A stretch of DNA of 64,000 nt, taken from the NCBI GenBank assembly GCA_029378245.1, contig JARKIF010000092.1:61378-125377 (forward strand). The letters are read 5' to 3'. The notes below the pieces were generated by a model. That model made no database searches. It was given only the letters and a program-made list of their open reading frames with translations, and was not told the origin of the DNA. The stretch is from Roridomyces roridus. Lineage: Eukaryota > Basidiomycota > Agaricomycetes > Agaricales > Mycenaceae. Shown in pieces: positions 4,661 to 32,970 of this stretch. The position numbers and the translations under genes were made by a program. Every line of letters starts with the position of its first letter. Position 1 is the first letter of the stretch.

Positions 4661-4755
4661 GACAATAAGAAAGATCACTACCAGAACAATAAGAAAGATA
4701 GTGATCAGAACAATAAGAAAGAAGATGATAGTGAACACAATAAGAAGGAGATGCA
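4661..4755 (+). repeat. Tandem repeat of about 24 bp, four imperfect copies
   Basis: Four successive units share the core ACAATAAGAAAGA with variable spacers. The first unit starts with the LTR target duplication GACAA, so the LTR inserted into this array or its edge. A similar ACAATAAG-rich stretch occurs inside the 697-bp insertion at about 29840-29890. Confidence 0.6.
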
Positions 4756-9992: not shown

Positions 9993-9993
9993 T

Positions 9994-10005
9994 AATAAAA
10001 GTCTA
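9994..10005 (-). promoter_or_regulatory. Putative self-primer binding site
   Basis: AATAAAAGTCTA, one nucleotide past the 5' LTR, is a perfect 12-nt reverse complement of TAGACTTTTATT at 9893-9904 in the LTR, about 35-42 nt downstream of the TATA box, where the mRNA should start. In Tf1-type elements the first 11 nt of the RNA fold back to this site and prime reverse transcription. I see no match to a common tRNA 3' end here, but did not search all tRNAs. Confidence 0.7.
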
Positions 10006-10493
10006 CCCTCATACCGCTCATACCTCCCCCCGACATATCCTTTCCATACGCCTCGGCGTCCCTCCCCCACTACTTGGATTCTCGTAATTGAAGATCCACT
10101 CATACCTCAAGCATCACGTCGTTGAATCGCGACGTTAAACAAGCGCCAATCTTTGGTCGAACTATTTTGATAGACAGTCGCTGTGCTACGGGAAACGTTG
10201 AGTCCGTCCCCGCACAATAGCAGACGTTGGCGTTCGGGTGGCAATCTTCGGAGAGTACCCTCGCGCAGATACCGGGAGAGTCGTAGAAGGCCCGGGTCTG
10301 TTCTATCGGCAAGCGTTCCGACCGAGAAAACCACCACCGGCTTCGTGCCGCTCCTACCCAAGCCGCGACGGCGTTTCGCGCACCATCATCCTCCTCTTCC
10401 GGCACCTCTAGCCGTGAAGCCCGTTCCGTAGCGGACCAACTCTTGGCCGCTTCCGCCACCACCCACCACACCTTCCATACCGCCGCCCCTGCC

Positions 10494-11609: not shown

Positions 11610-14600
11610 GGCGCCCGGTCAAGGCCGAACCAGTGTGCCCTCCCGTATCTATTATCCATGGACAGTATACGCCGCTAGAGGCGGTAACGGACAGCACGAA
11701 CAATGTGCAAAATAGTGTACCTGTAAATTATGTAGAAAAAACTAGCCTACAACGTAGTATACAAGAATTTCTTGTAGGCGAAGTAGAAAAGCCAAAAAAA
11801 ATACGTATCTTGCAGAATGAGAACCGGAAACGTAATTTAAAGAATCGTCGCATGGATGAAGAAAACAAGCGCTGGAGCGCTTTTAAAAAGGCCCCTGGAA
11901 CCCAAACCAGTGATAAAAATAGTGAGAAGAAAAAGGGCGGCGATGCCGCGGAGGCTCAATCCTCGAAAGAGGAGGTAGCGCCTAAGCATACACGGGTGCC
12001 GTTCGGTCTCAGGAAGAAAGAGGCCGCACAATGGCTAGCACGCCGTGCTATGGGAGAGACGGAACAACGCTTAGCTCAGGAGCTGCGTGAGTTCCAACGG
12101 CAACGTGTCCACCACGAGATGTTGGTGGCAGTCCAGCTGGAAGCACTGGACACAGGGAAAACACGTTCCATTCGTGCGTTGCTGGACAACGGGTGTACCA
12201 CCACATGCATGGACAGGGACTATGCCAAGGCCGAAGGCTTCGAGCTCAAAAAACTCGACATGCCGATTGTGGCCAGGAATGCCGACGGGACCGAGAACAC
12301 CAAAGGCAAGATCACTCATTACGTAGAGATGATCATGTCTATCGGCCCGCATGTCGAAAGACAAAAGTTCCTGATCACGGGCTTAGGCAAAGCACGTGTG
12401 TTTATTGGGTACGATTGGTTGTTTAAACACAACCCAGAGATCAACTGGCGGGACCAGACGATGAAGTTCAGCCGATGTCCGGCAGAATGTGGCATGACCG
12501 GACTGGAATCCGGAAAAGGTGTCACACGGGAGGAAGCGGTGGAAGAAGGCGAATCGATCCTATTGGTCGATTTCGCGCCTGTTGTGGAGCTGCGAAGCAA
12601 GGCGACGCAGGCACAGCAGATGGCCGAACAGGCTTCGGCAGAAAAGGAAAAATTGACGGAAGACAAGATCCCAGAGCAATACCGGGAGTACGTCAAAGTT
12701 TTCGCAAAAGAGTCCTTTGACTCATTGCCGGAAAAGCGGCCTTGGGATCATGCGATCGAATTAAAGCCCGGATCAAAGGCTGTCGATTGCAAGATCTATC
12801 CACTCTCGTTAGGCGAGCAAGAAAAGCTGAACGAGTTTCTTGAAGAGAATCTCAAGAGAGGACGGATCAGACCATCCAAGTCGCCGATGGCTTCGGCATT
12901 CTTTTTTATTAAAAAGAAGGACGGGTCCCTTCGACCGGTACAGGATTACCGGAAGCTCAATGAGATGACGGTGAAGAACAAGTACCCGTTGCCTCTGATC
13001 TCGGAGCTGGTCAACAAACTCCGAGGAGCTAGATTCTTCTCCAAGCTTGACATACGTTGGGGTTACAACAATGTACGGATCAAGGAGGGAGACGAGTGGA
13101 AAGCGGCTTTTCGGACCAATCGGGGATTGTTCGAGCCACTTGTGATGTTCTTTGGGTTGACAAATTCACCGGCCACGTTCCAAACCATGATGAACGACAT
13201 TCTTTGGGATCTCATCAACGAGGGCCATGTGATTGTATACCTAGACGACATCTTAATTTACACAGACTCCCTGGAGGAGCATAGAAGGATTGTTTCACGC
13301 GTCCTGGAGACGTTAGAAAAGAATAAATTATTCTTGAAACCCGAGAAGTGTGAATTCGAGAAGACGGAGATCGAATATCTCGGGGTGATTATTTCCCACA
13401 ACTCCATGCGGATGGACCCGGTGAAAATCAAAGGGATCATGGAGTGGCCAATGCCAAAGAACGTCAAGCAAGTGCAGGCGTTCCTCGGCTTTGTTAACTT
13501 TTATCGGCGATTTGTCCGCGGCTTTGCCGACATTGCCAGGCCCCTCACTAAGCTGACGGGGAAGGCTGCGTGGTCCTGGGGACCGGAGCAAGAGAAGGCG
13601 ATCAACAAGTTGAAGGAACGGATCACGGAGGATGTCATCTTGGCATTGCCAACGGATGATGGGGAATATCGGCTTGAGGCCGATGCATCAGACGGAGCGG
13701 TTGGAGCAGTGCTCAGCCAACTCCAAGAAGGAGTATGGAGGCCTGTCGCTTTCATGTCTCACGGCATGAGTGACACCAAGAGGAATTACGAGATCTATGA
13801 CAAGGAGATGCTCGCAATCATGCTTGCTCTTGATGAGTGGAGGCAATTCCTACTCGGTGCAAGGCACACGTTCGAGGTTCTGACGGATCACAAGAACCTC
13901 CAATACTTCAAAAAGCCGCAGAAAATCAATCGTCGGCAGGCACGATGGATCATCGAGTTGTCGCAGTACGACTTCTCGTTACGGCACCGGCCCGGAGCTT
14001 TGAATAAGCAGGCCGATTTGTTATCCCGCAGGGCGGATCATGACCAGGGGAAGGAGGACAATCAGGAAGTTGTCCTGCTTAAGCCCGAATATTTCCGAGC
14101 GCAGGAAATCACGCTCGAAGGCGTCGAGAAGGATCTCCTGGAAGAGATCCGAGCGGAACGCAAACGGGACGGCAGCATGAGGTCTGCCTTACTGAAAAAG
14201 CTCCCTAGATGGGAGGAGGAGGACGGCATTGTCTATTACAATGGCCTTATTTATGTTCCGCATAACACGGAACTTAGAAATAAAATTATTGGACTCCATC
14301 ACGATCCGGCGATCGTGGGACATCCCGGAGGGAACCGGACCCAGGAGCTCGTTGAACGAAACTACTGGTGGCCGAAGCTCGGCAACAATGTTTCCGAGTA
14401 TGTAAAGTCGTGCGAAGCGTGTCAGAGGTCACGAGTTCTTCGGCACAAGCAGGGCAAGCTGAACCCGCACAAGATTGCGGAAGGTCCCTGGCAGATCATT
14501 TCGATGGACTTGATCGGGCCGCTGCCGATTAGCAACGGTCACAACGCGATTCAAGTCTGGGTGGACACCTTCAGCAAAATGATTCACGTGGAGCCCACAA

Positions 14601-15835
14601 CCATGGAAATCACGGCTGAAGGAGTTGCGCGTTTGACACGCGACCGTGTGATTAGATATCACGGGGTACCTCAAAAGATCATCTCGGATCGGGATCCGAG
14701 ATATGTAGGAGGCTTTATGCGGGAGCTCAATAAGATCCTGGGGATCTAAATGAACCCGAGTACGGCACACCATCCGATAACCGACGGGCAGACGGAGCGG
14801 ATGAACCAGGAGATCGAGAAATATCTCCGAATATTTATAAATTATCATCAGACGGACTGGGCCGAGTGGCTCTCCCTGGCGGAGTTCTGTTACAACGACA
14901 AGGCCAGTTCAGCAACGAAGGCCTCGCCGTTTTATTTAAATACCGGCTATCACCCTTGGAAAGGGATCGAGAATGCCGTGGAGACGAGGAATGAGGCCGC
15001 CGAGGAGTTTGGCACGAAAATGAAGAAAATTCGTGATGAAGCCACGGCGGCATTAGAAAAAACACAAAAAACAATGGAAAAATCATATAATCTACGACGG
15101 CGACCAGCGCCAGTATTTAAAAAGGGAGACAAGGTCTGGATTGAGGCGACGAACATCCAGACAGATAGACCCTCGAAGAAGCTGGGAGATAGGAGGCTCG
15201 GACCGTACGAGGTTCTGGAGAAAGTCGGAGCGTCTTCCTATAGGTTGAAATTGCCGAGCACGGACAAGTCACATCCGGTGTTCAACGAGGCGATTCTCAC
15301 ACCGTATACGGAACCGCCCGAGAATCGAAGGGAGAAATGGCCGCCGCCGAAAATCATATCCGGCGAGGAGGAATATGAGGTGGAGGAGATTCTGAAACAC
15401 CGCAAGATGGGGCGCGGGTTTCAATATTTAATAAAGTGGAAGAACTATCCTATGGGAGAAAGGACGTGGGAACCATCGCGCAACTTGACGCATGCAAAAA
15501 AGCTGTTGGACAAATATAACAGGGAACACAGCATTGATGTCAGGACACTACCCACGCTCCCGGCTGGATATTGGGACGGCGAATGCAAAAGATTCGTCCC
15601 AAAGGAGGAGTCCCAACAATACTCAAAGAAGAAATTATTTATACCCGATGAAAATTGGTTTGTCGACATCGACGAGGACGTCGATCCTAGAGAGGGGGTA
15701 ATGTCACGCGCTGACCTATTTGCGCACGTGACAACGCCAAACAAACCCGATATACATTGGCGCCGCACAGCGTTAAAGTCATGGGAACCCTGTCTCGATC
15801 GGATTGAAGAAGAAGCCGAGGAAGACATTATTTAA
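11603..15835 (+). CDS. pol: Pol polyprotein: protease, RT, RNase H, integrase, chromodomain (one in-frame stop)
   Basis: Expressed by -1 frameshift from gag. After a basic spacer come the aspartic protease (ALLDNGCTTTCMD, about 12175-12213; Asn replaces the usual Ser/Thr in D-S/T-G), reverse transcriptase with VIVYLDDILIYTD (about 13230-13268), RNase H (LEADASDGAVGAVLSQ, about 13675-13722), integrase HHCC (HHDPAIVGHPGGNR, CEACQRSR) and the D-D-E core (MDLIGPLPIS, ISDRDPRYVGGF, TDGQTERMNQEIEKY). A GPY/F-like module (RRLGPYEVLEKVG) and a chromodomain (YEVEEILKHRKMG...YLIKWKNYPMGERTWEP, about 15372-15476) follow. A TAA at 14747-14749 interrupts integrase, in the same frame as the continuation ATG at 14750; Lys AAA to TAA would explain it. 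The final 44 codons lie inside the 3' LTR. Without readthrough, integrase and the chromodomain would be lost. Confidence 0.93.
15687..15701 (+). promoter_or_regulatory. Polypurine tract of the gypsy element
   Basis: AGAGAGGGGGTAA lies immediately before the 3' LTR, as expected for the plus-strand primer. It is inside the pol coding sequence (codons for Arg-Glu-Gly-Val). Confidence 0.75.
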
Positions 15836-16177
15836 AGACGTGGGATAAGTTTCATATTTATGCACGACAGCGTGGATGAGGGATGAAGTTTTCGATCAGT
15901 GAACTGTCAGATCATGACAGGCTTCTATGAAGAACACGGTGTAGACATGACAATAGGAAACGACAAAGATGCAGAACAATAGTGCATGTCGGAAGCCAGG
16001 ACAATTAGTGTAGCATTGTAGATCTATTCCTCATAGTATAAAAGCAGTAGCTAGTCGTCGTATTCTGTACCCTCTCCTAGACTTTTATTCAGTTCATTTT
16101 ACGAGCTTTAGTAGCGCACTACCCAATCCACAGCATCTTACCGCTGTTGGACGCGTGAAACAAGTCTTGTCGTGACA
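15702..16177 (+). repeat. 3' LTR of the gypsy element
   Basis: Same 476-bp sequence as the 5' LTR with no difference seen by eye. The pol stop codon TAA is at 15833-15835, so U3 doubles as protein-coding sequence. Followed by the ACCTT target duplication at 16178-16182. Confidence 0.95.
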
Positions 16178-17586: not shown

Positions 17587-17814
17587 ATCGGCGTCTTTGA
17601 CTCACCTTGTCCACCTAGGTTTACGCATTATATAGGGATTTCAGTCCATACCCCGAACGTGTTAATTCAGGGGTGCACCAAAAGGTCATTTCCCGGGACC
17701 CTACGGGCAAAACCGGTTGGCCCACGGCTCCGTCGGCATTCCTGCTATGATTCGGCACCCACGGCAATGCTGTGCAGCACTGGTTAACCACTTATTCAGC
17801 CGGGATAACCTCCC

Positions 17815-18085
17815 CTCGCGTTAACGCGTAAAATACCCCTTCGATTAACGCGAAAGATGCTGTTCGCACCCCTTCACTCAACGCGATAATACACGCTTTA
17901 ACAGGCATCAAACAAACAAGGTGAGAAAAAAAAACAGGACAACGCGTGATCATGTATTCAACGTGTTAAATGAGACAAAGAGCGTGACTATATACTTATA
18001 CTTAACGCGTTAAATGAGAACAAAGAGCGTGACCATCTATTTAACGCGTAGAAAGGCATCCCAGCCATTCAACGCGTTAAACGCC
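17815..18085. repeat. Left subterminal cluster of TTAACGCGTTAA-like motifs
   Basis: About eight full or degenerate copies of a 12-bp palindrome: GTTAACGCG at 17821, ATTAACGCG at 17844, TCAACGCG at 17878, CAACGCGTG at 17940, TCAACGTGTTAAA at 17959, TTAACGCGTTAAA at 18002, TTTAACGCGT at 18040 and TTCAACGCGTTAAA at 18067. They lie between the left end and the transposase stop codon. Confidence 0.8.
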
Positions 18086-18098
18086 ATCCCAAATGCAG

Positions 18099-21000
18099 CT
18101 ACTCGTCCACCTCACCACCCATCAGCAGCTCCTCATCGCTGTCAACGTCACCCCGGCCATCGCTACCCTCTCCATCCGACACATGCCCTTCACCCTCCTC
18201 CACCGTCGCCGCAGAAAACCCGTACGGCAGCACCTCAGGCCGGTGCCGCTTCTGACCCCTACGCAGAGGAGCTGCGGTACGTACCGCCTCAGCTCGCTGG
18301 TGAAGCTCCCGGCAAAGATGAGCCTGCTTTGCGGCGTAGGCTACCTTTCCCTCCGCGATCTCAGCATCTATCACCCCCACCCCCACCGCAGCGCCCCTAA
18401 CCTGCCACAGCCGTTCTCGATACTGGTGCGTGGCAAGGAGGCGCCGCCACTCCTCCTCCAGCATGCGTCGCTCCTCCGTCCAACGGCGAGATCGTGCCCA
18501 TGTCTTCGCGTATTCGATGCGTAGAGCTGGGCGAATGTCAATCGGAGCTGCACCCAAAAAGGAAATCGAAAGTACTCACCCTCGTCGAGGTCGACATCAG
18601 TGCCAGAAGTGCCAGCCATGGTCCAAATCCACGACACCTCCCTGAACTTCTCACCTCCACGCACCGGCCCCTCCTCGCCATCACCCATCTCCACGTCTTC
18701 CTCCGGCAAGCCGCCCTCCCTGCGTAGCTGCTGCGCCCGATCCGTTGCGCGCTTGCGCTTCTCTCCCTTCTTGGCGAGATCATCCGCGTTCTCCATGCAA
18801 CGGATGTCGACTTTCCGCAACCTCGGCCACCCAACCGCTGTTTCATCCCCTCCAGCCAAAGACAGCCTCGCTTGCCACCCCATCTGGAACTTCTCAGAAT
18901 GGGCTCGGATCTTGCTTTCGTTTCGGGCGACCAGCGTTCGCGAGCGAGTATTCTGGGCCTGATGCCGAGAGTAGTTCTTCTTGTACAGCAGCAGCCGCGA
19001 TTTCATATGCAGCTGATTTCGGAGGCGCACAAGCACAGCGTTACACGCAGGGACGTCGCGGCTGGTGAGTGCTAGAATGGCAGCCGGCTGGTAGGTAGCC
19101 TGCAGCGTACGGAAGCGAGTAAGCCGCCTGTTAAACTTGCTGCGAAGCTGCTTCAAGCTCTCCTTCGAGGACACTGCTGAGCTAGCTTTCTTGAGCTCCA
19201 CCTGCAGCCGAATTTTGCGCCTGTAAGAGAAACTAATCAGAACAAATCTCAATCTCAAAGGCGCAACCCCCACTCACTGGCTATCCTCCAGCTCGAGGCC
19301 CAGCGTGACGAAGGCACACGGGCTGACGTCGTGTACCCGTGTTCTCCCGGCCGCCACCTCCTTCTCGTCCTCCTCCTCTAGCCGCTTGCGCACCTCCGCC
19401 TCCGTCAAACCCTTCACCGTGGCCTCGTACGGGTTAGGTTTCGAGCCGTCCGCCTCATACTCCTCCACCATCTTCCTCCAAACCGGGGCACGATCTTCCT
19501 GCTGCTGGGTGAAGGCTGAAAAAGCCTGTAGCTGCACTATTTCCTCCTTTCTGGCTACATCCAAACACCGACGCAGGAGATCAGCTGTCAAAATCGTCAG
19601 AAGAGCCCTGGAGAAAATGGGAAAGGACTCACGAAGACCGATGGTCTTGAGCCAATTCCAAAAGCTCCAGTGGCAGTCGAGTGCGTCGTGCCTCGCACCC
19701 GGGCCACTAACCCTCGTGCTTGTCGCAATTCCCCCAATGGAGGCCCACGGGCGCTCGATTCCCTCACCATCCGTCTGACCGCTACCCGGCACGTAGTTCA
19801 GGGAATACCGGACTTGACAGTCTCGCGTATGCCCGTGTATATGCATCTTGGGGATGACGAACCGGAAGAGCTCCAGCAGCATCGCAAGCCGTATAAGGGG
19901 AGGGAGCTCCTTCAATCTTTCCAGCACATAGATCGCCCACTGGCAGACGATGTCGTAGGAGACGATCTTGCGGATGCGAGGGTCGAGATGACGGAGGATG
20001 GATGCGAAGACCCAGTCGGTGTTAGCGAACCTGGGACGATGTTAGTTGAGCCAAAACCACGGCGGAGGCATGGAATAACACAAAGCCGCACCTTTCGCCT
20101 TTCTGAAGATCCCCCACGCCGTTCGGCTGCACAAATTCGTGGCGAGCGCAGACGCCCATGACAACACCGGTGGTGGCGTAACCCCTGGAGAATTTGGTGT
20201 TGGCGTAATCGAGCGCGGCAAGGCCGCTGCATGTACTCATCTGGAATATATAAGTCTGCCATTTGTAGAGAAGGAAGGATATAGTCGTACCTCCTTCTGA
20301 TCCGTCACAGTAAGCAGATACTTACGGTACTCCTCTGGCTCCACCACATACGCCCAGCCCGTACCGAGGCCTGGATCGCGCAGCTCGCTGGAGATGATCC
20401 GTCGCTTCAGTCGGAAGCAAGCGTCCAGAGCCAGGACCATGACATACAAGCACCTTGCACAATCAAAATCAGCATCGCGTGCCAGGAAACTCGAGAGGCA
20501 AAAACTTACTGGTCCTCGGGCGCGGCGTTCTCAAAACCCTCGGGTAAATTCACTCCTGGGCGGGGACACACAGGGCAGAGAACAGCCAGCTCACCGGGGG
20601 ACGTGCCCGTTGAGCCGGATTCTGCGTGCCCTCGCCCTCCACGTTTCAGCAGAAGCAGGTGCCGCCATTGACGTGCCATCCGCAAAAACGGTTCGTAGCG
20701 ATCCGGAGGCTCCACGCCCGTGTTATCCGTCAACCGTTCCAACACGCAGTAAAAGTCGTAAGCTGTCATCTTTGACTGGTGGGAGTAGAGGGTGAAGCGG
20801 TCGAGAGCAGTGAATGTGGCGCAAGTACGAGGCCGCTTGTCCGTCGAAGGATACCAGCCAAAGCGGAGGAGCTGCAGATGATGATGTAGGAACTGCGGGG
20901 AGCGGGACTCTGCTTGCAGCTGGAGCTCGCAGCCACAGAAGTCCACCGCGACTTCGTGGAAGCCATTGTCGTGGAGGACAATAAAACCCTCATGGGCAGG

Positions 21001-21771
21001 ATGAGGCGCCGAGCAACATCCGTTGGCATGGTGGCCGAGTTGGACGCGAAGCCCCATGGACTTGAGATTATGTCGGGCAAAGAACGCGCCATTCCATTTC
21101 TGTCCAAAGAATTAGTAGCTGCAGATGACGACCAGAAGGAAGAATATACGGCAATTCTATGCAACGGCAGGTGGGCATGCGAGGAGACGCAGCAGTCGCT
21201 GCACAACATCTCTCCTCCACAGCAGTCCTCGCATCGAAACAAAGCTGCTCTCCCGCTGCCTATGCACCGCGGACAGATATCACCCGATTTACCGCGCCCA
21301 TCCCTCCAGAGCAGCGTGTCGAGGTACGTGTCTCGCAGCTCCGTGTGCCATCTTGCCATAGCCTCGTCCTGCTACCGTCAGTTTGCAGCACAACAAAAAG
21401 GTGAAGAAAACGCACCGCGCGCTTCACCCTTGGAGGACTCTGCTCCGTGTTTTCAGTCCACTCCTCGCCCCAGATACCGTCCTGCAAATCGTATCGCTCC
21501 TCACCAAGCCAATGCGTGTCCGTTGTCACTGCTTGGACGGATTGTGTGGGACCGGATCATCGACGTTTGACCGGAGATGAAGACGTCGCCACGGGCTGAG
21601 CCTGCCGAAGAATGCGCCGCCCATCTGCAGAAAGTCCCTCCTTCACTGCCCACACCGAAACCACCTGGTAGTCGTCTGACGAGTCAGAATCCGACCCGCC
21701 GACAGTGACGGTAGTGGCTGCAGCAAGAGTTGTAGGTCGTCTTGCTTGTTTTTTCTGGCGGGGTGGCATCA
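18099..21771 (-). CDS. KDZ-type transposase
   Basis: Multi-exon gene from MPPRQKKQARR (ATG at 21769-21771) to the stop at 18099. The N-terminal third has a CxC2-type cysteine cluster (WHTELRDTYLDTLLWRDGRG, then CPRC...CEDCCGGEMLCSDCCVSSHAHLPLHRI, about 21180-21330). The RNase H-fold core shows ALDACFRLKRR, CARHEFVQPNGVGDLQKGER, SYDIVCQWAI, PKMHIHGHTRDCQ and TDGEGIERPWA, the acidic catalytic and zinc-binding motifs of the KDZ family. The C-terminal part is charged and coiled-coil-like, ending in an acidic tail. It would cut and rejoin the element ends in the nucleus. A TGA at 21557-21559 interrupts the N-terminal exon; it needs either a 36-nt intron or a CGA-to-TGA mutation as explanation. Introns carry ordinary GT-AG borders. 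Activity is plausible but unproven. Confidence 0.85.
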
Positions 21772-21819
21772 TGCAGCGTCTTGTTTTGTTGGTGCTTGTA
21801 AGGTTGGGGCATGGCGTAG

Positions 21820-21935
21820 AGTTGTCGCGTTAAAGGAGGGAGGAGGAAGTTGTCGCGTTAAAGGAGGGAGGAGGAAGTTATCGCGTTGGCTGTGGGAGAG
21901 GCTGTGTGGTCATGTGATTAGCGCGTGTTCCTCAA
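21820..21935. repeat. Internal cluster of CGCGTTAA motifs upstream of the KDZ transposase
   Basis: Two tandem units TTGTCGCGTTAAAGGAGGGAGGAGGAAG (given here as spaced words: GTCGCGTTAAA, then GGAGGGAGGAGGAAG) at about 21824-21878, followed by ATCGCGTTGG and TTAGCGCGTG. They sit in the divergent promoter region just upstream of the transposase ATG. Confidence 0.6.
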
Positions 21936-22030
21936 CTTGCAATAAGGACAGTGCTGCTCACAAAAAGGAATAGAGCAATGAGAAAGAAAGAAAAGGGGAA
22001 AGAAGAAAGTCGGTGAGCAGAGCAAAAAGG

Positions 22031-22032
22031 GC

Positions 22033-22064
<32 letters not shown>

Positions 22065-22175
22065 GAAACAAGTTACGGTCAGGTTGGAGGTTGGCACTGA
22101 GAATCGAACTCGGTGCTAACTGACAGAGGGCCATCAATACGACAGGCAACGATACAAGTCCGACAAGTTGCCGAC
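22031..22175 (-). other. Degenerate tRNA-like sequence followed by a poly-T run
   Basis: On the minus strand, 22175-22090 has an 86-nt stretch whose ends could pair as an acceptor stem (GTCGGCA with TGCCAAC, six of seven) and a T-arm-like CCGAG-TTCGATT-CTCAG that contains a B-box. It is followed about 35 nt later by about 25 T residues (22056-22031). D-arm and anticodon arm do not fold well, so it is at best a tRNA-class pseudogene or a SINE fragment. Confidence 0.25.
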
Positions 22176-22267
22176 GAAGACTAAGGGAGTGGACCCTCCT
22201 ACATGTTTTCTTTGTGCCTCGGAGTCGTCATGTGAGCTCTCGGCCATCAAAGGCCCAACTTTTTGTC

Positions 22268-22668
22268 TTCTATCCGTCATGTCGTCTCCTTCTCCTCGGC
22301 CAAACCTTCCACCAACCAACTCAGCAACAGGAGAGCGGTACACAACGTATGTGCCCTTCCTCCTCTCCCTTTCCATGGCTGACGAATACGGCCTCACCAG
22401 CTTTGACGCCCACTTTGCCGCTGACGCCCACTTGGCCCTCCACGCACACGCGCACACCGAGCCCTGCAAGAGCACATTCGCTGCACTCAGCGCGTTCGGG
22501 ACGTTGGATGGGGAGGGTATTGAGAGGCCATGGGATCTTGCTTCGAAAAACAAGAAGGTGCGTGCTCTGCCCCCCTGGCTGACGATTCTCCTCACCTTTT
22601 TCTCAGGCGAAGCTATGATGTCGTCGAGCGTTTTTTTCCACTGTCCTTATCGTACCCCGTGTGTGTAG
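22268..22668 (+). pseudogene. Fragment with KDZ transposase motif, or unknown gene
   Basis: An open frame starting MSSPSPRPNLPPTNSATGER contains LDGEGIERPWDLASKNKK at about 22503-22557. GEGIERPW is the acidic core motif of KDZ transposases and also occurs in the intact copy at about 19710 on the other strand. The rest (an Ala/His-rich segment) does not match the family. It may be a scrambled relic of a second KDZ gene, or part of the 5' end of the TET/JBP gene; I cannot decide. Confidence 0.35.
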
Positions 22669-22770
22669 AGCATTTTGAAATAACCAAGAGTCGTTCACCA
22701 ACTGCTACCTGAAAAAGACCTCGCCACCGACTCTTTCTCAAAAAGGAAATAAGCGCTTACTCAGCCCCGC

Positions 22771-24608
22771 TTGCCAGCAGACCTCACTCCGTTGTGCGAT
22801 GTCCCACCCATTCAGCGCGACAACGGCCCACAATGCTTCTCAAGGTGTGTGCCTTGCTTCCTCCTTCTCTCCTGCCCTTTTTCTTTTCTTCTTTCGCCCG
22901 ATTCCCACCACAGAGCAGGGCATTTTTACCTACACCTCATCCATCCCCTCCTTTCCTTCTTCTCCACCTAAAGACGTGTTGTTGGCTCACACCGCGTACC
23001 AATCTAGCAACCCTTGGCCCACCCATCGTCTGCCAGCAATACGACCTGCGGGAAGCTCTCCTTCGCGAGAACGAGGCTCGAATCCAGCGCGAGGACAGCG
23101 GCGTCGTCCCCGAGGGCGAGGAGGCTGATCTCGAGTATCCTCCTCATTTGGCTTCTGTCCCCAACACCCCCTTTGTTCCTCCACCTCCACCCACCAAGCC
23201 AGCTCGACCCTCTGCCTCCGCCAGGAGCAACAGCAAGAAACGCGACAAAGCGCGTTCCAAACGGCAGCAAGCAGCGCGCGCAGCCGAGGCTGCTATCGAC
23301 CCACCAGCCCCAAACCCTCGCGTTCTCAAGAAGGCCGCCGCCTCCTCTCCTATCAAGCTCGCCCTTGACGCTGCCGATTTTCGCGCGTCACATCCCCGTT
23401 GGACGGGCATGCCGGGGCACGCAGACCACCCGCTCTTTGTGCACGCACGTGACGCAGAGTACCTCAAAGAGCACCTGCAGTACGCAGACTGGCAGGGAGA
23501 GTACGTTTTTTCCTTCCTTCCTTGCCACCTTCGGTCCTCACCTCGCGTGCAGAAAGACGCATGTGCTCCTCGACAAGCACGGTCACGTCATCGGCACTCT
23601 CGTCGCCCCTCCTCTGCCTGGCGAGTCTTGGGCTCCCGTTCTCCAAGACGCTAACAAAGCCGTTCGAGGAGCGCGGCAGGAGATGTCGTTCACCGAGAGC
23701 GCCCACCACCATCGTCGTGCCTTTGACGAAGGGGAAGGCTTTCCATCCGAGATGACGGGAATGGCCTTTGGTGGCGGTCGGTCGCAAGGAGCCAGGCAAC
23801 GTCAAGGCCAGCTCAGCGAGGAATGGGCGTGCCATGGACAAGCTGGTGGGTAACCACGCCATCCGCCGCATGTGTACATTTCCCGTTGGTGGGTGCCTGT
23901 AGCTCCAATCTCCTTCCCTTTGCTAACACTTCTGCAGGTCCTTTCCAGGCGCTCTGCAACCCTATATTCTCCAAGTATCACCGCACCAAGCAGCAGCTCC
24001 GGCAGCGGCAACCTGGCCTCCGCAGCGTCTTCCCCAAGTCCCCATTTGCCGCCCTCACTGCCAACCTCGGCCCTTTCTCCGTTTCACCCCCTCACGTCGA
24101 CCACGGAAACAAGGCCGACGGGATGTGCTGCATCACCGCCCTCGGCGAGTTCGACCCCGATCGAGGCGGGCACCTCGTCTTGTGGGACTACAACCTCCTC
24201 GTGCGGTTCCCCCCGGGGTGCTGCATCCTCATCCCATCCGCCGTCGTCACGCACTCCAACACCCCCATCCAAGACGGCGAGGAGCGCTACTCGCTCATCC
24301 AATACTCTGCAGGAGGGCTATTCCGTTGGGCTGCGAACGGGTTCCAATCCGACCTGGCTTGGGCTGCGTCTGCAACGCCGGAGGATCACACCGCGCGGGA
24401 ACGCGCTCGCAGAGGACGATGGGAGAACGCTCTGAGGGAGTTCCCCCTTTGGAAGGACATCAAGGTCGGGAACTACATGGGGCGCGTGCGCGTGGAGGTT
24501 TGGGCGGCTGCTGAGGCTGGAGATATCAGCGACCTCACGGACGACGAGGATGGCGAGAAGGAGGAGGGCACTGGGGTACCTCCTGCGAAGAAAATCCGTT
24601 GCGCGTGA
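22771..24608 (+). CDS. TET/JBP-type 2-oxoglutarate/Fe(II) dioxygenase of the KDZ element
   Basis: Expected to oxidise methylated pyrimidines in DNA, like TET and JBP enzymes, in the nucleus. The upstream part has GPPIVCQQYDLREALLRENE and a basic Lys/Arg/Ala segment. The catalytic double-stranded beta-helix is in the last long exon: PHVDHGNKADGMCC gives the His-x-Asp iron ligands, VTHSNTPI the distal His, and ERYSLIQYSAGGLFRW the region expected to hold the 2-oxoglutarate-binding Arg. It ends with an acidic tail and KKIRCA, TGA at 24606-24608. Introns lie at about 23502-23553 and about 23878-23938. Two one-nucleotide frame corrections are needed (near 23028 and near 23785 before KEPGNVKASSARNG). 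The true start is uncertain: the exon with CDVPPIQRDNGPQCFS has no clear ATG. It is transcribed away from the KDZ transposase, an arrangement known for fungal KDZ-TET/JBP elements. Confidence 0.8.
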
Positions 24609-25199
24609 TGGGCTCTTTTGCTAGCTACCCACCCTCCATACGGCTCTGTTATTTCACGTATTGTCGACTGCTTTTTTCTGACTTGCTTCTAATGTAAAAT
24701 GCTCTCGTTTCGTGTCTGCGGCAGGGGTGGAGATCTGGAGACGACTAATTCGTTTCGGGCACAGGCTTCTAATTCGGGAACATTTGTCGTTTAATTCGGG
24801 AACATCTGTCGTTCCCTCACTAGCCCCTGCACCGTTACTCCTCAAATCTTGAGGACATCTTTTCTGGCCACTTATGAGTGGATTTGAGAAGACTCTAACA
24901 ATTTTTCTGCTGAAGACAAATGATTTAATATAAAATCAGGCGGGCATCCCACAGAGCTGGGAATTATTTTTCTGAGTCCTCTACCTTCCACCTCCTTTGA
25001 ATAAAATCGCTGAGGCCATAGACCGCTTGGAACGATGGAGACAAATTAAAAGATCATTTATTTTGATTCGAGAACTGACATTGCACCCCCGAACAGGTTT
25101 CGTATTTACATCTGTGACCCACCCTCTCTCTCTTCCACTCCACATCCTGTCGACACCACTCTCAACCTCGACAGCACACCGCCTCGCAATCGAGCTTCC
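24609..25199. other. Intergenic region in the KDZ element
   Basis: No gene seen. A short direct repeat (TAATTCGGGAACAT, about 24771-24803) is present. Confidence 0.4.
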
Positions 25200-26149
25200 A
25201 TGGCCCGGAAAGTGGGTCGTCCGCCTTTGGACCCCGTCGAGAAGGAGAGACGGCTCAAGAAATCCAAAAAAGACTACGAAGAGCGGTGCGTTCACTCATA
25301 TTTGCCTGTCGCTTCCATAGTGACACTCTCTCTTAGCAACCACGATAACCGGCTTCGCAAGGCGCGAGAGCGCATGCAACGGTGCGTGCCTCTCCTTTCC
25401 CAACCCACAGCTCCCCCAATCCCAGCAGAAAACGTGCCAGGGACGCTCAGAACCCAATTACTCATTTCAAAGCAAAAAGAAAGGCCGCGGGGCACTCTGA
25501 GAGCTATCGCGACAGGTATGTTCTCGTTCCATCCCAAATGCAGCTATTCTAATTGTCCCAAAGAAAATTCGCGGAAGAGAAGGCTGAAGCTTGTCGAGCC
25601 AAGCATGAGCAGAGCGTACGAAAGTACGCATCCCCTCCTTCCCTTACCCACCGCTGCTGCTGATGCCTCCCTCGTTTCTCGTTTACCAGCGAGTTGAGCA
25701 GGAGCGAGCTTCTCGCCAAGCATCTCCCTGCACGCACGGTGCGGGCTGCCTTGACGATGCCATCTTCGTTCCCTCTCCGCTCAAATCACACTGTCCACCA
25801 CTCGGATGCCCAGCACCCGCGTTCTCTCTCCGCTATCGCCACTTCCGATAGCGAAGACGAGTTCCTCACCGACGAATTCCAACAAGACGGCGCTGGCGGA
25901 TTTCCCAGCCGTCCCTCGCATCCGGTACGCTGCCCGCATTGCTACGGGGAGGAATGTGTTGGATGTGCATGCCTGTGTGAGGCGTCGACAGAGTGGATAT
26001 CGCATGAGGGCGGCCACTTCTTCGAGACCTGCAAACGGTGCGGGTTTGCCGACTGCCCGGGCTGCGTATGTATTTGCCCGCTGAGCGATGAATGGATCGA
26101 GCACGGGGGTCATGTGGGCAGGGTGAAGAAGAGGCGTGGTGGCCGATAG
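25200..26149 (+). CDS. GRPP-motif, cysteine-rich small protein (KDZ cargo)
   Basis: Starts MARKVGRPPLDPVEKERR, where GRPP resembles an AT-hook core. Several short exons joined by about 47-55-nt GT-AG introns encode a highly basic, Arg/Lys/Glu-rich helical segment (RLRKARERMQR, KFAEEKAEACRAKHEQS, VEQERASR). The last exon (about 25700-26149) carries two related zinc-cluster-like units: CPHCYGEECVGCACLC with WISHEGGH, and CKRCGFADCPGCVCICP with WIEHGGH. It ends VKKRRGGR and TAG at 26147-26149. Similar Cys-rich proteins are dispersed in basidiomycete genomes, but I know no function. DNA binding is an inference from the GRPP and basic segments. Same strand as the TET/JBP gene. Confidence 0.55.
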
Positions 26150-26433
26150 GATGGATCCTTCTTGGTGGGAGGGTGTAGTTCTTCGACTTTTTGCCTTTTT
26201 TTTTGGAAGGCCTATTTCGATGTGGGTGACTACAAAATTGGCCTGTGCACTCACCCAATGTCCTCTCTACATGACGGACCTGTTAATGGCACTGTCTAGT
26301 CAATGTCTCGTGACTTTCGGTATGGACGCTGGTTCGACTCTCAAGTGCTTCCTTCTTTTTTTTCTTTGTGGCTTACTGACTTACCGGTGAGTGCTATCAT
26401 TTTGGCGCTAACGCCTCATCTCTTCTCACTACC

Positions 26434-26820
26434 ATGTCTCAGGATGCCGAGGTCATCCAGATCCAACCAAGCCACACCCGCCGCTTCCACCACCGACGCG
26501 AACCAAGAAAGCAGGCTCAGCACGACGATGTCCCTCACGGCTGGGACCCGGACGTCATCCACACGCTCCCACCCTCACGCGCCAGCACCGACGACACCGT
26601 TGAGAGAGTCGCGCGAATTCGCACCAGAGCAAAAGCAGCCGCAGACGCCCGACGTTCGGCAGACGACAAGCTCGTCAAGCTTTTGAAGGCGGGGCCGGAG
26701 GGACGGACGAAACGCAAGTAGGTGATTTTAGATCTGCGTTGTCTGTTTTGCTCAAAAGCATACAGGCTTGCAAAGGAAATGAGGAAGGCTGGGAGGGGTG
26801 CCTCGACCTCGAGGAAGTGA
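26434..26820 (+). CDS. Small basic protein of unknown function (KDZ cargo)
   Basis: About 113 residues in two exons. The first (26434-26719) starts MSQDAEVIQIQPSHTRRFHH and contains HGWDPDVIHTLPPSRAS and a Lys/Arg-rich helix. The intron runs GTAGGT...ACAG (about 26720-26764). The second exon adds LAKEMRKAGRGAS and TGA at 26818-26820. No family is recognised. It lies directly before a cluster of CGCGTTAA motifs. Confidence 0.45.
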
Positions 26821-26851
26821 GCCGCGTTAGCTAGTCCCTTGTATTCACTGC

Positions 26852-26965
26852 AATTAACGCGTTAAAATTTGCGTCTTGTATTTCTACTGGTACTGGTACT
26901 TGCTAGTTTCATCAAATGAGTTTAACGCGTCGAACTTGGGGTGGAAGCTTAACGCGTTAAATCGC
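26852..26965. repeat. Internal cluster of TTAACGCGTTAA motifs
   Basis: Three copies: ATTAACGCGTTAAAA at 26853, GTTTAACGCGTCGAAC at 26919 and CTTAACGCGTTAAAT at 26949. Two are perfect 12-bp palindromes. They lie between two plus-strand cargo genes. Confidence 0.75.
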
Positions 26966-27050
26966 GTGGTGTTTATTTGCGCGGAACGTGACTTCTGTTC
27001 TTGTCGTTCTTTGCTTCCACTCCACCACCATCCAATCTCGACTCATCGCC

Positions 27051-27920
27051 ATGGCCGTTTACACATGCCCAATGCCTTTTTCCCGGGGCATCAACTTCGG
27101 TAACCACAAGGACCACGACGGGAGCACGAAGAGGTTCTGGTTTGTGGTGTTGTTCCAGGGAGTGTACACGCTCTAGTGTGTCCCTTGCTCTCTTACTGTC
27201 TGGGTTACTGACAACGTCTATCAGCTCTGACGCAGCCTCTCGCATGGACGAGCGTCTCTGCGGCCGCGATCTCTTCATTTTCTTGCGCCACGTCCATGCG
27301 GAGGAATTTTGGGCATGCCACTGCGTCGCCGACCATCGTCATGACCAACGCGGTGAAATTGGGCCGAATCGACACATCCGGACTCCTCCACCCTCTCCCT
27401 CCGACGCTGAAGACGAAGACGACCTCTTCATCGACGACACCCCTCCCAAGAAGAAGCAACGCGGGGAGACTGCCATCCCGAGCTCGTGCTCGCCGAGCGT
27501 CTTCACTCCCGTTCCGAGGGGTGCGGTCACTCCCGTTCCGAAGGCCGCGGTGAAGATGGAGACACCCCGGTCCAGCCGCAAGCACGAGACACCCAAGATG
27601 CTGTCGCACTCGGATGCACATCGTGCACCCGCAGGCTCTGCATCAGAGTCGATTTCGACTGGGCTGCCCTCTTACTCCGTTTCCAGCCCGATCCCCTCGT
27701 CCTCCTCGATCTCGGCACCCCCTCCCTCTCTGTTTGTCCTTCGCAGCCCTGGCAAACAGGCATCGCTCTTCAAGGGCAGCTGGTGAGTCCTTTCTTTGCA
27801 TGTCTGAATGCGCGTTAATGGTCTTGTAGGCAGGAGGTAGTGGCGGCGGCAGAGCCCAGCGAGCGTGTCTCGCGTCTCACTGCGGAGGAGCTCAACGACG
27901 GCGAGTCGTTCTTCGGTTGA
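27051..27920 (+). CDS. Uncharacterised cargo protein with possible RNase H1 N-terminal-like motif
   Basis: Starts MAVYTCPMPFSRGINFGNHK at 27051. The segment STKRFWFVVLFQGVYTLYSDAA resembles the FYVVxxGxxxGVYxSW pattern of RNase H1/viroplasmin N-terminal domains (weak). An intron (GTGTGT...TCAG, about 27177-27223) follows. The next exon has CGRDLFIFLRHVHAEEFWACHC and then a Ser/Pro-rich tail with short repeats (FTPVPRGAVTPVPKAAV), a KKKQR basic motif as possible nuclear signal, and a third short exon ending ESFFG with TGA at 27918-27920. Function unknown; the fold guess needs a profile search. Confidence 0.4.
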
Positions 27921-28503
27921 GGGATGGGTGTGGTGGCAGGGATTTCTTTTCGTCTTCATGTAGTACAAAGTCGGCGTGTATGTAGTACAGCATTGGCGTG
28001 TCATGGGGAATGAATGGATCTTGCTGGGATTTTTCGGAGCGGAGAGGTTTTTGTCAATTGAGATCGAGGGACTTGGGAAATAAAATAAAAAGATGCTCAC
28101 TTCGGGGGATCGAACGCAAAAGGATTGGTGGTGGCAGAGGTCCACTTCACAGGCCCCATGACCGTAAGGAAATTGGGCCTGCGCCTTGGACCTCTGCCCC
28201 ACCAATACCTAGAGTGTTGGTGGTGGTGATTTAAATATACCATTGACATAATTGACGTTGACGTACCGCAATTCAAAATGTATTTTGGACCAAGCCCTTG
28301 ATCTCCGCACTGACAGCGTGTACTCAGTCGCCCACATTCCCTCCACGCGACTTGACTTCTCTCACCTCCACCATGCTCAACTCTGCTCGACGTCGCCCCG
28401 TCCGCCTTGCTCAAGATGTCTCCCTGCGAATGCAATGATGGCCACCGTTGCTAGTATTTGGCCACACACGTGCTGCACCAACGCATTTGTCGCATCGATT
28501 CCC
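27921..28503. other. Intergenic region in the KDZ element
   Basis: No gene seen apart from the probable promoter and 5' UTR of the next gene. An in-frame upstream ATG at 28435 would add an N-terminal extension to it (MMATVASIWPHTCC). Confidence 0.35.
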
Positions 28504-29526
28504 ATGAGCAAGAAATCTTCGAAACCCAGAGGCAAAGGCAAAGGCAAAGCTCCCCAGGCCGACGAACAGGGCCCCAGGAAGAAACCCGGCAACGATTGCC
28601 ACTTCAAAGGAGCGCGCCGCGCCTTCCTCGACAGCCATCTCCCCACGTTCCAAGCCCTCTCCAAGAACGAGGACGGTACGACCAAACATGGTGGGGCATC
28701 GTCGATGTTCCCTGCGATGATGGCGGACTGGTGGAAGCAATGGCCTTGGCGTCTCCCTCTGGATCAAGAGGCCCTGCCCGACATCGACTACGCCCTGGAG
28801 CCTCAGACGCCCGATGAGCACACGCAAAAGGAGGCCATTGTAACTGAGATGACCAAGGTACGCCCTCTTTACCTCAATAAAAACCCTGTCTGAACGTTAT
28901 CAGAAAATACGCAACTGGTTCCAACGCCAGCGTAGCAGCCTCGGCCTGGTCAAGAACCCCATCAACCGGATGCTCGAAGAGCTTATCCCTGACGCGGACG
29001 ACGACGACGAGGACCACCCAGGGAAGAAGCCTTCGTTCGTCCAGTGGTACATGAAGCAGCTTGGGTACAGCAAGAGGTGTGCCGACGCGTTCAAGCTCCT
29101 GCATCCAGACGTGGACCACCGCGTGGGTTTGAATCTGCGTGTCGAGGTCGCTCGCAACCTGCTGGAGCAAGAGCCGGAGGAAGTACGTGCTAGGCTCGCA
29201 GCACGTTACGAGGACGCGTACAAAAAGCCTGTTGTCATGGACGACGCTGAAGGCGATGGGGGCAACGGTGCAGGAAAAGAAGACGTCGAGGAAGAGGAGG
29301 AAGAAGGAGCCTCGGAATACAAGGTCCTCATCACAGAGGAGGAGAAAGAAGTGTACGTACTGCTTTACGTTTGGGGTTCGGACGCTGACGTGGGGCACAG
29401 CGCTAGAAAGCGGTTCTCCAGCGTGGCCGATCCTCTCGTCGACCGCCTGCGCAAGTACACGGGCTACGAGATCGTCATACTTGCAGGAAGGCTTGAGGGA
29501 GAGGGCCGGGATCGACGCACGATGTA

Positions 29527-30223
29527 ATGTCCGTGCCAGAGGATAGGACAAAGGGGCCGGAACCTGAGGTCGGAGGTCGGAGGTCGGAGGTCGGAGGTCG
29601 GAGGTCGGAGGGACGTAGACCGAGGGTAATCCGGATGAGGTGAACGCTACTCGGAGGGAGAGCGCACCAGCCACTTGACTTCCGAGAGAGGAGTACTCGG
29701 AGACTAGATTGGCACAGAGGAATTGCGGAGGCAACACACGTTAATTAACTACTGACGTACATCACAATCGTATGTCCTATTTATACTAAGTAAGTATGAC
29801 ACGACCTAATGGAGTCAGAAGTATGAAAGACAATAAGCTCTATACTACAACAATAAGAGAGAAGAAGATAAAGATAATCACAATAAGGGAAACGCTCAGA
29901 AGAACTTCATTGCGTGAAAACCCTATAGGATTGTGCAATACGAACAGATCGGATGCATCAAGGTCGGAATGTCCGGATCAGTCGGAAATGATCCGAACCG
30001 GAGGAGTCGGAAGGTCCAAGGGAGAGTCGGGAGAGTTGGACATGCATGGATATAACAACGTAAGATTGTGCAATATGACGTGATCGAATGCATCTTGGAT
30101 GGAAGAGGCCGGAAGGTCGGAGGGACCGGAGGGCCCAGAGGGATCGGAGGGCCCGGAGGGATCGGAGGGCCTCGGATCGAAGTCGGGATGACATGGATAT
30201 AACACACGAGCACTGTGCACACC
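29527..30223. mobile_element. 697-bp solo-LTR-like insertion in the KDZ cargo gene
   Basis: Flanked by a perfect 5-bp duplication ATGTA (29522-29526 and 30224-30228) and excisable with full restoration of the host exon and its splice donor. Contains a GGAGGTC heptamer repeat (about six copies, 29571-29612), a second GGAGGG(A/C)CC repeat zone (30118-30175), a TATA-like TATTTATAC (about 29777) and ACAATAAG-rich sequence. No open frame. Size and 5-bp duplication fit a solo LTR, but the ends are ATGTCC...CACACC rather than TG...CA. Confidence 0.7.
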
Positions 30224-30544
30224 ATGTAGTAAGTATTCCTCATTCTTCACCGTTGGTTACCATTTCTAACGAACGTCCGTAGTGTTCAAGGGGGTGACGA
30301 CTACAAGAAGCATGCCGGCCTCGACTTCAGGTCGTTCAGCGTTAAGCACTACGCCTCCGTCATCAACGGATACAGCAAGTACGTCTGGAGCTGCCGTACG
30401 TACCTCTTTCTTCTCTATTCTTGGATGGATAGATATCTTACCCCCTCTTAGACGTGACCAACAAGGCCTTGCAGGCAGGACAAGACCCGACAGCGTTCTC
30501 CAGCAACTCTCACAAGGGCAACGCAAGCACCACGGGTGAGCCAG

Positions 30545-30745
30545 CGGCTGCACCCTCTGGCAACAATGCCGGCATCACAAACGATGAGCGCGTCCCTGCC
30601 CCCTCCCCAGACAACGCCGGCATCACCAACGACCAGCGCGTCCCCTCCCCGAACAACGCCGCCGTCACCAACGACCAGCGCGTCCCCACAGCCTCCCCGA
30701 ACAACGCCGGCATCCTCAACGAGGGCATTCCCACACTCTCCGGTA
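30545..30745 (+). repeat. In-frame coding minisatellite
   Basis: Five degenerate units of about 36-42 nt encode variants of PSPNNAGITNDQRVP inside the cargo protein. Unit boundaries keep the frame, so copy number changes would alter protein length without breaking it. Confidence 0.7.
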
Positions 30746-32337
30746 ACAACGCCCCTCCTCTGCCGGTAGTGGCCAGCACGGTGGTTCCCACGTTTGGGGA
30801 ACACCTCACGAGGGAGCTGTCGGAGATGGCAAGCGAGCAGCGTGAGGCACGCCTCGTCGAGTTGAGCAAGATGGCACCCACCGAGCTGGGCTTTGCGGAG
30901 CAGAGTGCTCACGCGCGTCGCTTGATGCGTGGGCTCGGGTTCTCGGCGACGCCGTCGTCCACAGCGCTGGGGTGGGGTCCAAACTCGCAGCTTCTTGGGA
31001 AACGCAAGCCTGCAGTCAGGAAGGGAGGGCGGAAGGGGAAAAAATCGCGGCGTGACGATGACGCAGAGGAGGGCGAACCCGAGGGAGAGGAGGAGAGTGA
31101 GGGAGAGGAGGGTAGCAAGGGCGAGGGGGAGGACGAGGCGAACGAGAAGGAGAAGGAGAATCGGGAGGAGGCGGGGGTGGATGTGGAGATGCTCGACGTG
31201 GGGACGAAGCCCGTCAAGCCCAAGCCCCGCTTCGCAGGGGGGAAGAAAAACCAAGACCCGAGGCAGGCGGCGGAGAACGCAAAGGACCAGCTGCTGCTGG
31301 TGGACCTCAAGCTCGGCCCTGCCCTCGGTCCCAAATTCGACTACGCCGTCGATCTCTGGATGAAATCCGAGGTCGATGCTAGGTTTGCCATCGACGTAAG
31401 TGACTCCTTCCTTCAATACAAGCGGTCAAATCACTGACGTGCTTCAAACAGAAAACCACCGGCAAGCCAAGCACAAAGTCTCACAAGCCCCAGATGCGGC
31501 CTTGCGAGCTTACGGAATGGGTCAAGAACGCGCGCAAAGCGGGGTGGCGACCCTCCAAAGTGGTTGGCGCGATTGACCGCAGGATGGTCAAGTGGTGGGT
31601 CGAGAGCAACCCGGAGTGGAGGCAGATGACGCGGGAAGACGGGACGCCCTGGCTGCGCCAAGGAGATGCCTCCCTCGCCGACGTTGATCTGAGGGGGCCG
31701 AACGGGTTCCTCAACGTGATGATGGGCCTCAAGATGTGGAGCGAGCGCTGGGGAGAGGGTGTGACAGAGCCTCCGGCAATCTGGTCGGAGATGTTGGCGG
31801 ACGTGAGCTGGGTGCTTGAGCGGTAAGTGTTTTTCGCTTTTTTTCCTCATTCTTCTTCTGTTTTCCTCGCATACTGACACATTCGTTCTACCTCAGAGTT
31901 ACCTCTGGTCACGGTGCGCATGCCGTCCCTGCCATCAATGCTCAGACTCCCGCCCCCGCCGCCATCAACGGTGCCGACGAACCCGCCGCCAACGCTGCCG
32001 AGCAATCCGCTGCACCTGTTGCCAACGCTGCGGCAGAACCCGTCGCCAACGCTGCCGACAAACCTGCTGCCGACAAAACCGCCGCCAAAGCTGCCGAGCA
32101 ATCTGCTGCACCCGCTCCCGACGCTGCTGACAAACCCGCAGCCGACGAAGCAATGGACCTCGATCTCGGCTCCATCGACCTCGATCTGCTCTTGGGTCTG
32201 ACCCCCGAGGAGCAGGATGATCTCCTCAAGGAGCTGGAGCTTGACAACGAGGTCAGCTAGTGGGAGGGAGCACCCTGTTCTTTCGGCATGGTGCCGCCGT
32301 CAATATGTACTGGCCAAATTGTCTTTTTTTGATTAAA

Positions 32338-32432
32338 TATAACGCGTTTTTTGTATGGGAGGGCGTTCAACGCGTTAGGACGCGGGATTTCCGTTGAGAG
32401 TTTAACGCGTTGAGCGTTCGACGCGTTAAACG
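32338..32432. repeat. Right subterminal cluster of TTAACGCGTTAA-like motifs
   Basis: ATAACGCGTTTT at 32339, TTCAACGCGTTAGG at 32368, GTTTAACGCGTTGAG at 32400 and TTCGACGCGTTAAACG at 32417, with a degenerate TTTAACGTGTTCG at about 32608 inside the terminal repeat. Mirrors the left cluster at 17815-18085. Confidence 0.8.
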
Positions 32433-32651
32433 CCGTTCAATCACGTGCAACCCACCATCTTTTATTTTTTTTTAAAACAATTTCAGAAACAATATTAATT
32501 AAAAGCGAAAATGATTTGTTTTGATGCCGAAAGCTGACAGTGCGGCTGGACAGAGCTCCGGCAGCCCTGCCGCGTCCCATTTGGGAATCCCTCCCAGAAT
32601 CCCTGGTTTAACGTGTTCGCCTATGGCGTAATATCCCTGTTTAATGTGTTT

Positions 32652-32970
32652 ATTTCACTGGACCAGCTGTTCGACTTCCGGAATCATCTGCGTATCCGAG
32701 CTGGTGTCAACATGAACTGGAGCCTGGGTGCCATGAGTTTGAGACAGTCATTGAAAAAGGTCAACGCACCGGGTCTCCAGATGTATTTCTATGAGCTCTC
32801 CGCGACAGATCCGCCAGCGCCTGCTTGCGATTCGCAGAGTTGATACCACAGATTGTTTCGTGATCCGCGAAGTGTTTGAGGATGGGTTCGTCACAATATC
32901 GACAGTGTTTGATTTGTTGCAGCCGGAATGCCTGCTTGGCTGGACGCCGCTTACGCCGTGTAGCGGGCAT
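32652..32970 (-). pseudogene. Plavaka-like transposase, N-terminal exons
   Basis: From the ATG at 32968-32970, MPATRRKRRPAKQAFR is followed by a small C2HC/C2H2-like motif (HCRYCDEPILKHFADHETIC) and RKQALADLSRRAHRNTSGDP. An intron starting GTGCGTTG and ending CACCCAG (about 32726-32771) leads to APVHVDTSSDTQMIPEVEQLVQ, which runs into a stop where the KDZ element begins. Such an N-terminal zinc-finger exon on this strand fits the start of the transposase whose body resumes at 17586. The join cannot be proven because the target duplication is unclear. Confidence 0.5.

Follow-up and report, generated by a model that had tools for sequence, protein, structure and literature searches.

TET-carrying KDZ transposons of Agaricomycetes were reportedly described by Iyer et al. 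in 2014. TET-carrying Kyakuja elements of Agaricomycetes with a target-site duplication (TSD) of 7 bp have already been published (Kojima 2025, PMC12730594); it was also Kojima who proposed that these TETs relieve silencing, and the paper states that the function of the transposon TET has not been experimentally validated. Here we report on a TET-carrying element of 15,067 bp, located at positions 17603-32669 of a 64-kb stretch of DNA, hereafter the window, which corresponds to C494:61378-125377 in the 90.8-Mb assembly of Roridomyces roridus. It shares with the published TET-carrying Kyakuja a KDZ transposase, a TET/JBP dioxygenase gene, the 7-bp TSD, CA..TG termini and an Agaricomycete host, and differs by four additional conserved genes, g3-g6, and by CpG-containing palindromes (PMC12730594). 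Apparently new are the co-inherited four-gene array, the Asn/Cys residues of the TET and the double-CpG palindrome; a limited literature search, including parts of PMC12730594 and PMC8889193, met no TET-carrying Kyakuja with the array or the palindrome. The best reading, to which we assign a probability of roughly 0.7, is that this is a cut-and-paste KDZ-group transposon, with its closest match among the TET-carrying Kyakuja, and that it would encode its own anti-silencing module.

Insertion, ends and other copies

The interval 17603-32669 is a single insertion of a KDZ transposon, because the other haplotype, C112, is an empty allele, a 7-bp TSD with one mismatch flanks the element and its termini are of the CA..TG type. 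C112 runs uninterrupted across the empty site with a 7-bp overlap; the left duplication (17596-17602) reads TTTGACT and the right one (32670-32676) TTCGACT, the latter identical to the empty site. The left terminus (17603-17650, forward strand) begins CACCTTGTCCACCTA, the right terminus (32620-32669, reverse strand) ends TTCACTGGACCAGCTG, and each contains a diverged palindrome (three mismatches) 17 bp inside. The termini CACC...GCTG, i.e. the CA..TG ends of Kyakuja, recur in the other copies. The earlier note on this DNA, made from the letters alone, had seen a KDZ/TET element at 17634-32638 and had suggested a mobile module, to be checked by comparing its ends with those of other copies. The element and its mobile nature proved right, with the bounds now at 17603-32669; ends differing between copies were looked for in the R. 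roridus genome, and the ends turned out to be conserved. Within the element, the transposase gene is read in one direction and TET, g3, g4, g5 and g6 divergently in the other.

A second insertion shares about 99% identity with the window element and is divided between two contigs, C20 with its left half and C477 with its right half; since the identical 7-bp sequence GCAGCCT stands on both outer sides, the two halves once formed one element. Nested in this split copy is a third element (C477:84180-98882) with an exact TSD of TCTGTTT, which shows 67% identity when globally aligned with the window element, a 679-bp repeat being excluded. Exact 7-bp TSDs were found as well in the C235 (GGTAGCT) and C279b (CTGGGAC) copies, i.e. 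in four other copies altogether. The C334 and C279a elements (C334:79148-93708 and C279:68241-82830) carry GCATACT and CAACAGG crosswise, as after ectopic exchange or an assembly misjoin. In the split copy, the break falls within the TET gene, at an 11-bp repeat (CATTTGCC[G/A]CC; C20:41181 and C477:80469, window positions 24043-24053), where both outer sequences begin with similar inverted motifs; if caused by a single insertion, the interruption would exceed 120 kb over the two contigs.

That C334 and C279a carry each other's flanks, and that one copy is split over two contigs, indicates that misjoins or exchanges do occur, and the clustering of the genes could in principle be an assembly artefact or a nest of unrelated transposons. 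We consider this very improbable in view of the empty allele, the exact TSDs at four loci, the one-mismatch TSD at the window locus and the co-inheritance of the genes at approximately 50-80% protein identity between loci. For the window locus itself, an artefact is refuted by the empty allele and the TSD.

Transposase and TET/JBP dioxygenase

The transposase gene (18099-21769, reverse strand) has nine predicted exons encoding 1,075 amino acids, and the genome search located its KDZ domain at 19655-20443 on the same strand. The claim of a KDZ transposase was borne out by a Pfam-type profile search, which found both the KDZ domain (PF18758, 203.4 bits versus a curated cut-off of 26.6) and the CxC cysteine cluster (CxC2, PF18803, E=1.4e-38). 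These domains of the predicted protein show KDZ membership, and by TSD length and termini the element is best matched to Kyakuja, which has TSDs of 7 bp compared to 8 bp in Zisupton and Dileera (PMC12730594); as stated above, the 7-bp duplication is exact in four copies, crosswise in C334 and C279a, and has one mismatch in the window copy. A short KDZ-like relic containing GEGIERPW (22381-22600, forward strand) lies between the transposase and TET genes, immediately upstream of the latter, and is also conserved in the nested copy (KDZ E=5.3e-4, below the cut-off; pN/pS 0.52 in its frame). It may be a scar of the TET capture.

The TET/JBP dioxygenase gene (23037-24608, forward strand; 5' exon or exons uncertain) was assigned by the fold of its family. 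A TET profile searched against the PDB sequences returned nothing at E<=10, therefore a fold search was used. Its query model was P0002, the TET homologue encoded by the C235 copy and not the window TET itself, and the list of hits was headed by CcTet, TET2, NgTET1 and CMD1. Among 28 sequences, H294 and R305 are invariant and H241 and D243 are kept in at least 90%; the open reading frame (ORF) of the window TET reads HVD...H...R, i.e. the HxD...H iron triad and the 2-oxoglutarate (2OG) arginine are retained. The TET-like double-stranded beta-helix fold together with these residues upholds the claim of a TET/JBP dioxygenase. The Pfam Tet_JBP cut-off of 34.9 bits, a detection aid rather than a defining property, was reached neither by the window ORF (15.2) nor by P0006 (25.2) or P0002 (11.7), and a six-frame search of the genome with Tet_JBP gave no match, the controls being likewise silent.

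By ungapped spacing only, Asn at +5 and Cys at +11 were found in 82 of 100 anchor-matched proteins, while 20 of 120 were not matched by the anchor. The element TET is only 14-18% identical to CcTet of Coprinopsis cinerea (PDB 7vpn, 7w5p, 8jkk), whose Gly331 and Asp337 serve N6-methyladenine (6mA) and are absent from the element TET by the same ungapped spacing (PMC11040006). Where hTET2 has Asn1387, the element TET likewise has Asn. The AG-type TETs of Kyakuja defined by Kojima have Gly or Ser at CcTet position 331 and Asp at 337, where ungapped spacing gives Asn (+5) and Cys (+11) here, and the HxE of his PE type was not found in the element TET, which reads HxD (PMC12730594). The predicted Asn/Cys pocket, at the place of Gly/Asp in CcTet, is apparently new.

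The co-inherited gene array

Four further genes follow the TET gene on the forward strand, their models being predicted from the conservation between two copies. By eye, g3 (25200-26149) combines an AT-hook-like (GRPP) N-terminus with a tandem Cys/His cluster; its AlphaFold2 model is poor (pTM 0.28). The small protein g4 (26434-26721) has 95 amino acids, g5 (27051-27920) has 257, and g6 (28504-32260) is 905 amino acids long in the C477 copy. The earlier note had labelled g5 RNase H1-N-like and g6 homeobox-like. Neither label was sustained, as the g5 N-terminus and the N-terminal region of g6 match no Pfam family at E<=10.

Compared with the nested copy, at 67% identity, all six genes have pN/pS values below 1: the transposase 0.20, the two parts of TET 0.29 and 0.22, g3 0.28, g4 0.40, g5 0.44 and, in the reading of the C477 copy, g6 0.62 overall, whose third, fourth and sixth exons reach 0.24-0.34. 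Frame-shift controls for the transposase, TET and g3-g5 gave 1.01-2.89. For the gene models as predicted, these values show purifying selection on the six genes.

The order TET-g3-g4-g5-g6 recurs at 11 loci. Nine of them have the transposase on the same contig and hence the complete gene order (window, C334, C279 twice, C13, C35, C235, C330 and the nested C477 element), with g4 present throughout and g5 equally recurrent; a tenth, the split copy, has its transposase on C20, and C113 contains all array genes with no transposase detected. The C323 locus has the transposase, TET, g3 and g4 only. Nine loci do not mean nine independent insertions, since some may be alleles, the TETs of C235 and C330 being 100% identical. 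Protein identity between the array loci is roughly 50-80%. The claim of four co-travelling genes agrees with the constant order at nine loci and with pN/pS below 1.

A genome search with the TET query resulted in 78 clusters, at least 48 of which have a KDZ match within 9 kb, a lower bound because only the best 150 of 209 KDZ candidates were scored. Each of the 12 g5 clusters, one of them being the far exon of the split copy, has a TET no more than 12 kb away. Of the 20 g3 clusters, 19 have a TET within 8 kb, and the remaining one lies beside a KDZ match. Among the 25 g6 clusters, five have neither KDZ nor TET within 20 kb, with the same scoring of KDZ candidates. The TET at C235:166769 was not counted as an array, as the g5 and g6 near it belong to its neighbour. 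The possibility raised in the earlier note that the cargo consists of ordinary single-copy host genes was thus examined in the R. roridus genome and is contradicted by the distribution of g5 and g3.

A homologue search with g6 recovered only the window's own gene model among the 7,989 candidates sharing most words, which is uninformative on the spread of g6. Distant relatives of its C-terminal domain (29-45%) were found at C334:1778490, C113:843154, C451:16722, C2:1528690, C90:609445, C105:17123 and C157:499097. All seven are located about 8-11 kb from a KDZ match, which suggests that g6-like genes are present in other KDZ elements.

At least 31 of the 78 TET clusters have a KDZ neighbour and none of g3, g5 and g6; hence, the wider group can do without the array. 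Furthermore, the array proteins lack recognised domains. Both points would suit a plain TET-carrying Kyakuja in which g3-g6 are chance passengers without function for the element. However, pN/pS is below 1 for all four genes between copies of 67% identity, and the same gene order occurs at 11 loci, and we therefore regard mere passengers as unlikely.

CpG palindromes and signs of methylation

The palindrome TTAACGCGTTAA holds two CpGs. Sites of this type form a left subterminal array (17820-18081) and a right one (32339-32430). Three variant sites, TTGTCGCGTTAA twice and TTATCGCGTTGG once, spaced at 28 bp, immediately precede the transposase ATG (21822-21889), and two exact sites and one variant lie upstream of g5 (26854-26961). 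At up to two mismatches, the two strands of the window together yield 23 matches to TTAACGCGTTAAA at 13 places, every one within the element, against an expectation of 0.83; at up to three mismatches, the 12-mer has 22 sites in the element (15.1 kb) versus 8 in the rest of the window (48.9 kb).

The end regions of other copies were compared as well (both ends of C334, of C279 twice, of C235 and of C13, and the right end of C35), leaving aside those of C330 and C113. In 11 of the 12 end windows, the left one of C35 being omitted since no end was found there, 58 sites at up to two mismatches lie inside the elements (9,626 bp) versus one outside (10,285 bp). At 8 of the 11 ends, namely both ends of C334, C279a, C279b and C235, a site is placed exactly 17 bp inward of the terminus; the nested copy has a three-mismatch and a two-mismatch form at this distance from its ends. 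At all 10 loci computed, the g5 start is preceded at 90-118 bp by an exact palindrome; in the nested copy, the palindrome found there has one mismatch.

The exact 12-mer occurs 45 times in the genome compared to 11 times for the reversed control. A manual coordinate count places 31 of the 45 in the element family, 20 of them in elements whose two ends were found (C494, C477, C235, C279, C334, C13) and the other 11 within expected reach of C35, C330, C113 and C323. Exact TTAACGCGTTAA outside array elements was found at C24:1346707-1351213, where three further sites adjoin KDZ matches, and at C1:243886-248665. The placement of the palindrome in subterminal arrays and upstream of g5 is apparently new, and we infer that the palindromes are candidate binding sites for an element-encoded protein.

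Between the window element and the split copy, 70 of 99 substitutions are CpG transitions. Since such transitions dominate between young copies and in the flanks, the region was probably methylated. In the genome search, DNA methylase gave 7 matches and UDG gave 2. Counting as signs of a methylation role the TET fold, the CpG palindromes at ends and gene starts, and the excess of CpG transitions, which is also present in the flanks, it is plausible that, as the earlier note suggested, the module alters or reads the methylation in its surroundings.

The palindromes could also be ordinary transposase-binding sites, with a TET working genome-wide and without link to them. The subterminal arrays, and the sites found 17 bp from the tip at 8 of 11 termini, suit transposase binding, and the CpG transitions extend beyond the element. 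In contrast, the exact site upstream of g5 at 10 loci, its one-mismatch form in the nested copy and the variants at the transposase start suggest a role in regulation too. We lean against this explanation and still give it considerable weight.

State of the copies and neighbouring features

In the window copy, a 4-bp tandem duplication (23775-23778, forward strand), missing from the C20, C323 and nested copies, shifts the TET frame. Its g6 is interrupted by a multicopy 679-bp repeat (29523-30201) with an 8-bp TSD matching at 7 of 8 positions, and its transposase lacks 120 bp, in frame, at 19046 compared with the C20 copy. Because of the TET frameshift and the interrupted g6, the window copy may be unable to make its own functional module. 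The repeat has at least 34 near-full-length genome matches at 93-97% identity (best 39 of 217 candidates scored), and one copy of it (C279:67559-68234) stops 6 bp short of C279a, at the right end of that element.

Beside the element lies an LTR retrotransposon (9517-16177, Gypsy-like by eye), whose 476-bp LTRs are 100% identical. C112 lacks this retrotransposon, its empty site showing a 5-bp overlap, and the insertion is very young. An inverted repeat at 4320-5475 has 341-nt arms that are 98% complementary and 474 nt apart.

Weighing the anti-silencing reading

Several observations weigh against a self-encoded anti-silencing module. The non-element flanks differ from C112 by 48 substitutions, 36 of which are CpG transitions, so that methylation would not be element-specific but would cover the neighbourhood. 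Element CpGs are not depleted (observed/expected 0.97), which argues against long-standing CpG loss. No recognised domain is found in g4, g5 and g6 and no Pfam match in g3; the fifth and seventh exons of g6 are near-neutral (0.77 and 0.96), and two in-frame stops interrupt the g6 model in the nested copy. Neither C334 nor C279a has a matching TSD of its own, the C13 copy has no TSD, and three of the 11 ends (two of C13, one of C35) have no site 17 bp inside. Moreover, neither TET nor g6 is intact in the window copy, owing to the frameshift and the inserted repeat respectively, and the split copy has its TET broken at window positions 24043-24053 and its g5 by the nested element.

Under the anti-silencing reading, the host would methylate CpGs, those in the palindromes included, and methylation would shut down transcription and keep the transposase, or a DNA-binding protein encoded by the element (g3, g5 or g6), from binding. 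By oxidising 5-methylcytosine (5mC) on the element, the TET would leave sites and promoters usable, and g3 and g6 would probably help with targeting or regulation. The window copy, if mobile at all, would depend on TET and g6 from other copies. A more specific form of this reading is a sequence-addressed module, in which one or more element proteins recognise TTAACGCGTTAA both at the termini and at promoters within the element and recruit or gate a TET tuned to 5mC and not to 6mA, thereby demethylating the transposon and not the host; this form we hold to be tentative and rather doubtful. A selected gene set and CpG-containing candidate sites are now defined for the question why fungal transposons carry TET genes. 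With such a gene set and such short candidate sites, the anti-silencing idea is directly testable with an oligonucleotide and purified proteins.

Similar principles are known from plants. The subterminal motifs of En/Spm TnpA are methylation-sensitive. In the En/Spm (CACTA) system, TnpA relates to a repeated subterminal motif with methylatable cytosines, as is present in the window element, but En/Spm is not known to carry a TET and has another transposase. VANC, the anti-silencing protein of VANDAL elements, is not known to be an oxygenase; if the sequence-addressed form were true, the module would be a counterpart of VANC that works by oxidation, with the four-gene array serving as its targeting apparatus. 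VANDAL/VANC of Arabidopsis shares with our element the idea of transposon-encoded anti-silencing and the repeated target motifs, and it belongs to another transposon superfamily, while binding and demethylation are only proposed for the window element (PMC5735166). By analogy, a targeted anti-silencing system of the R. roridus element would resemble VANC and En/Spm TnpA.

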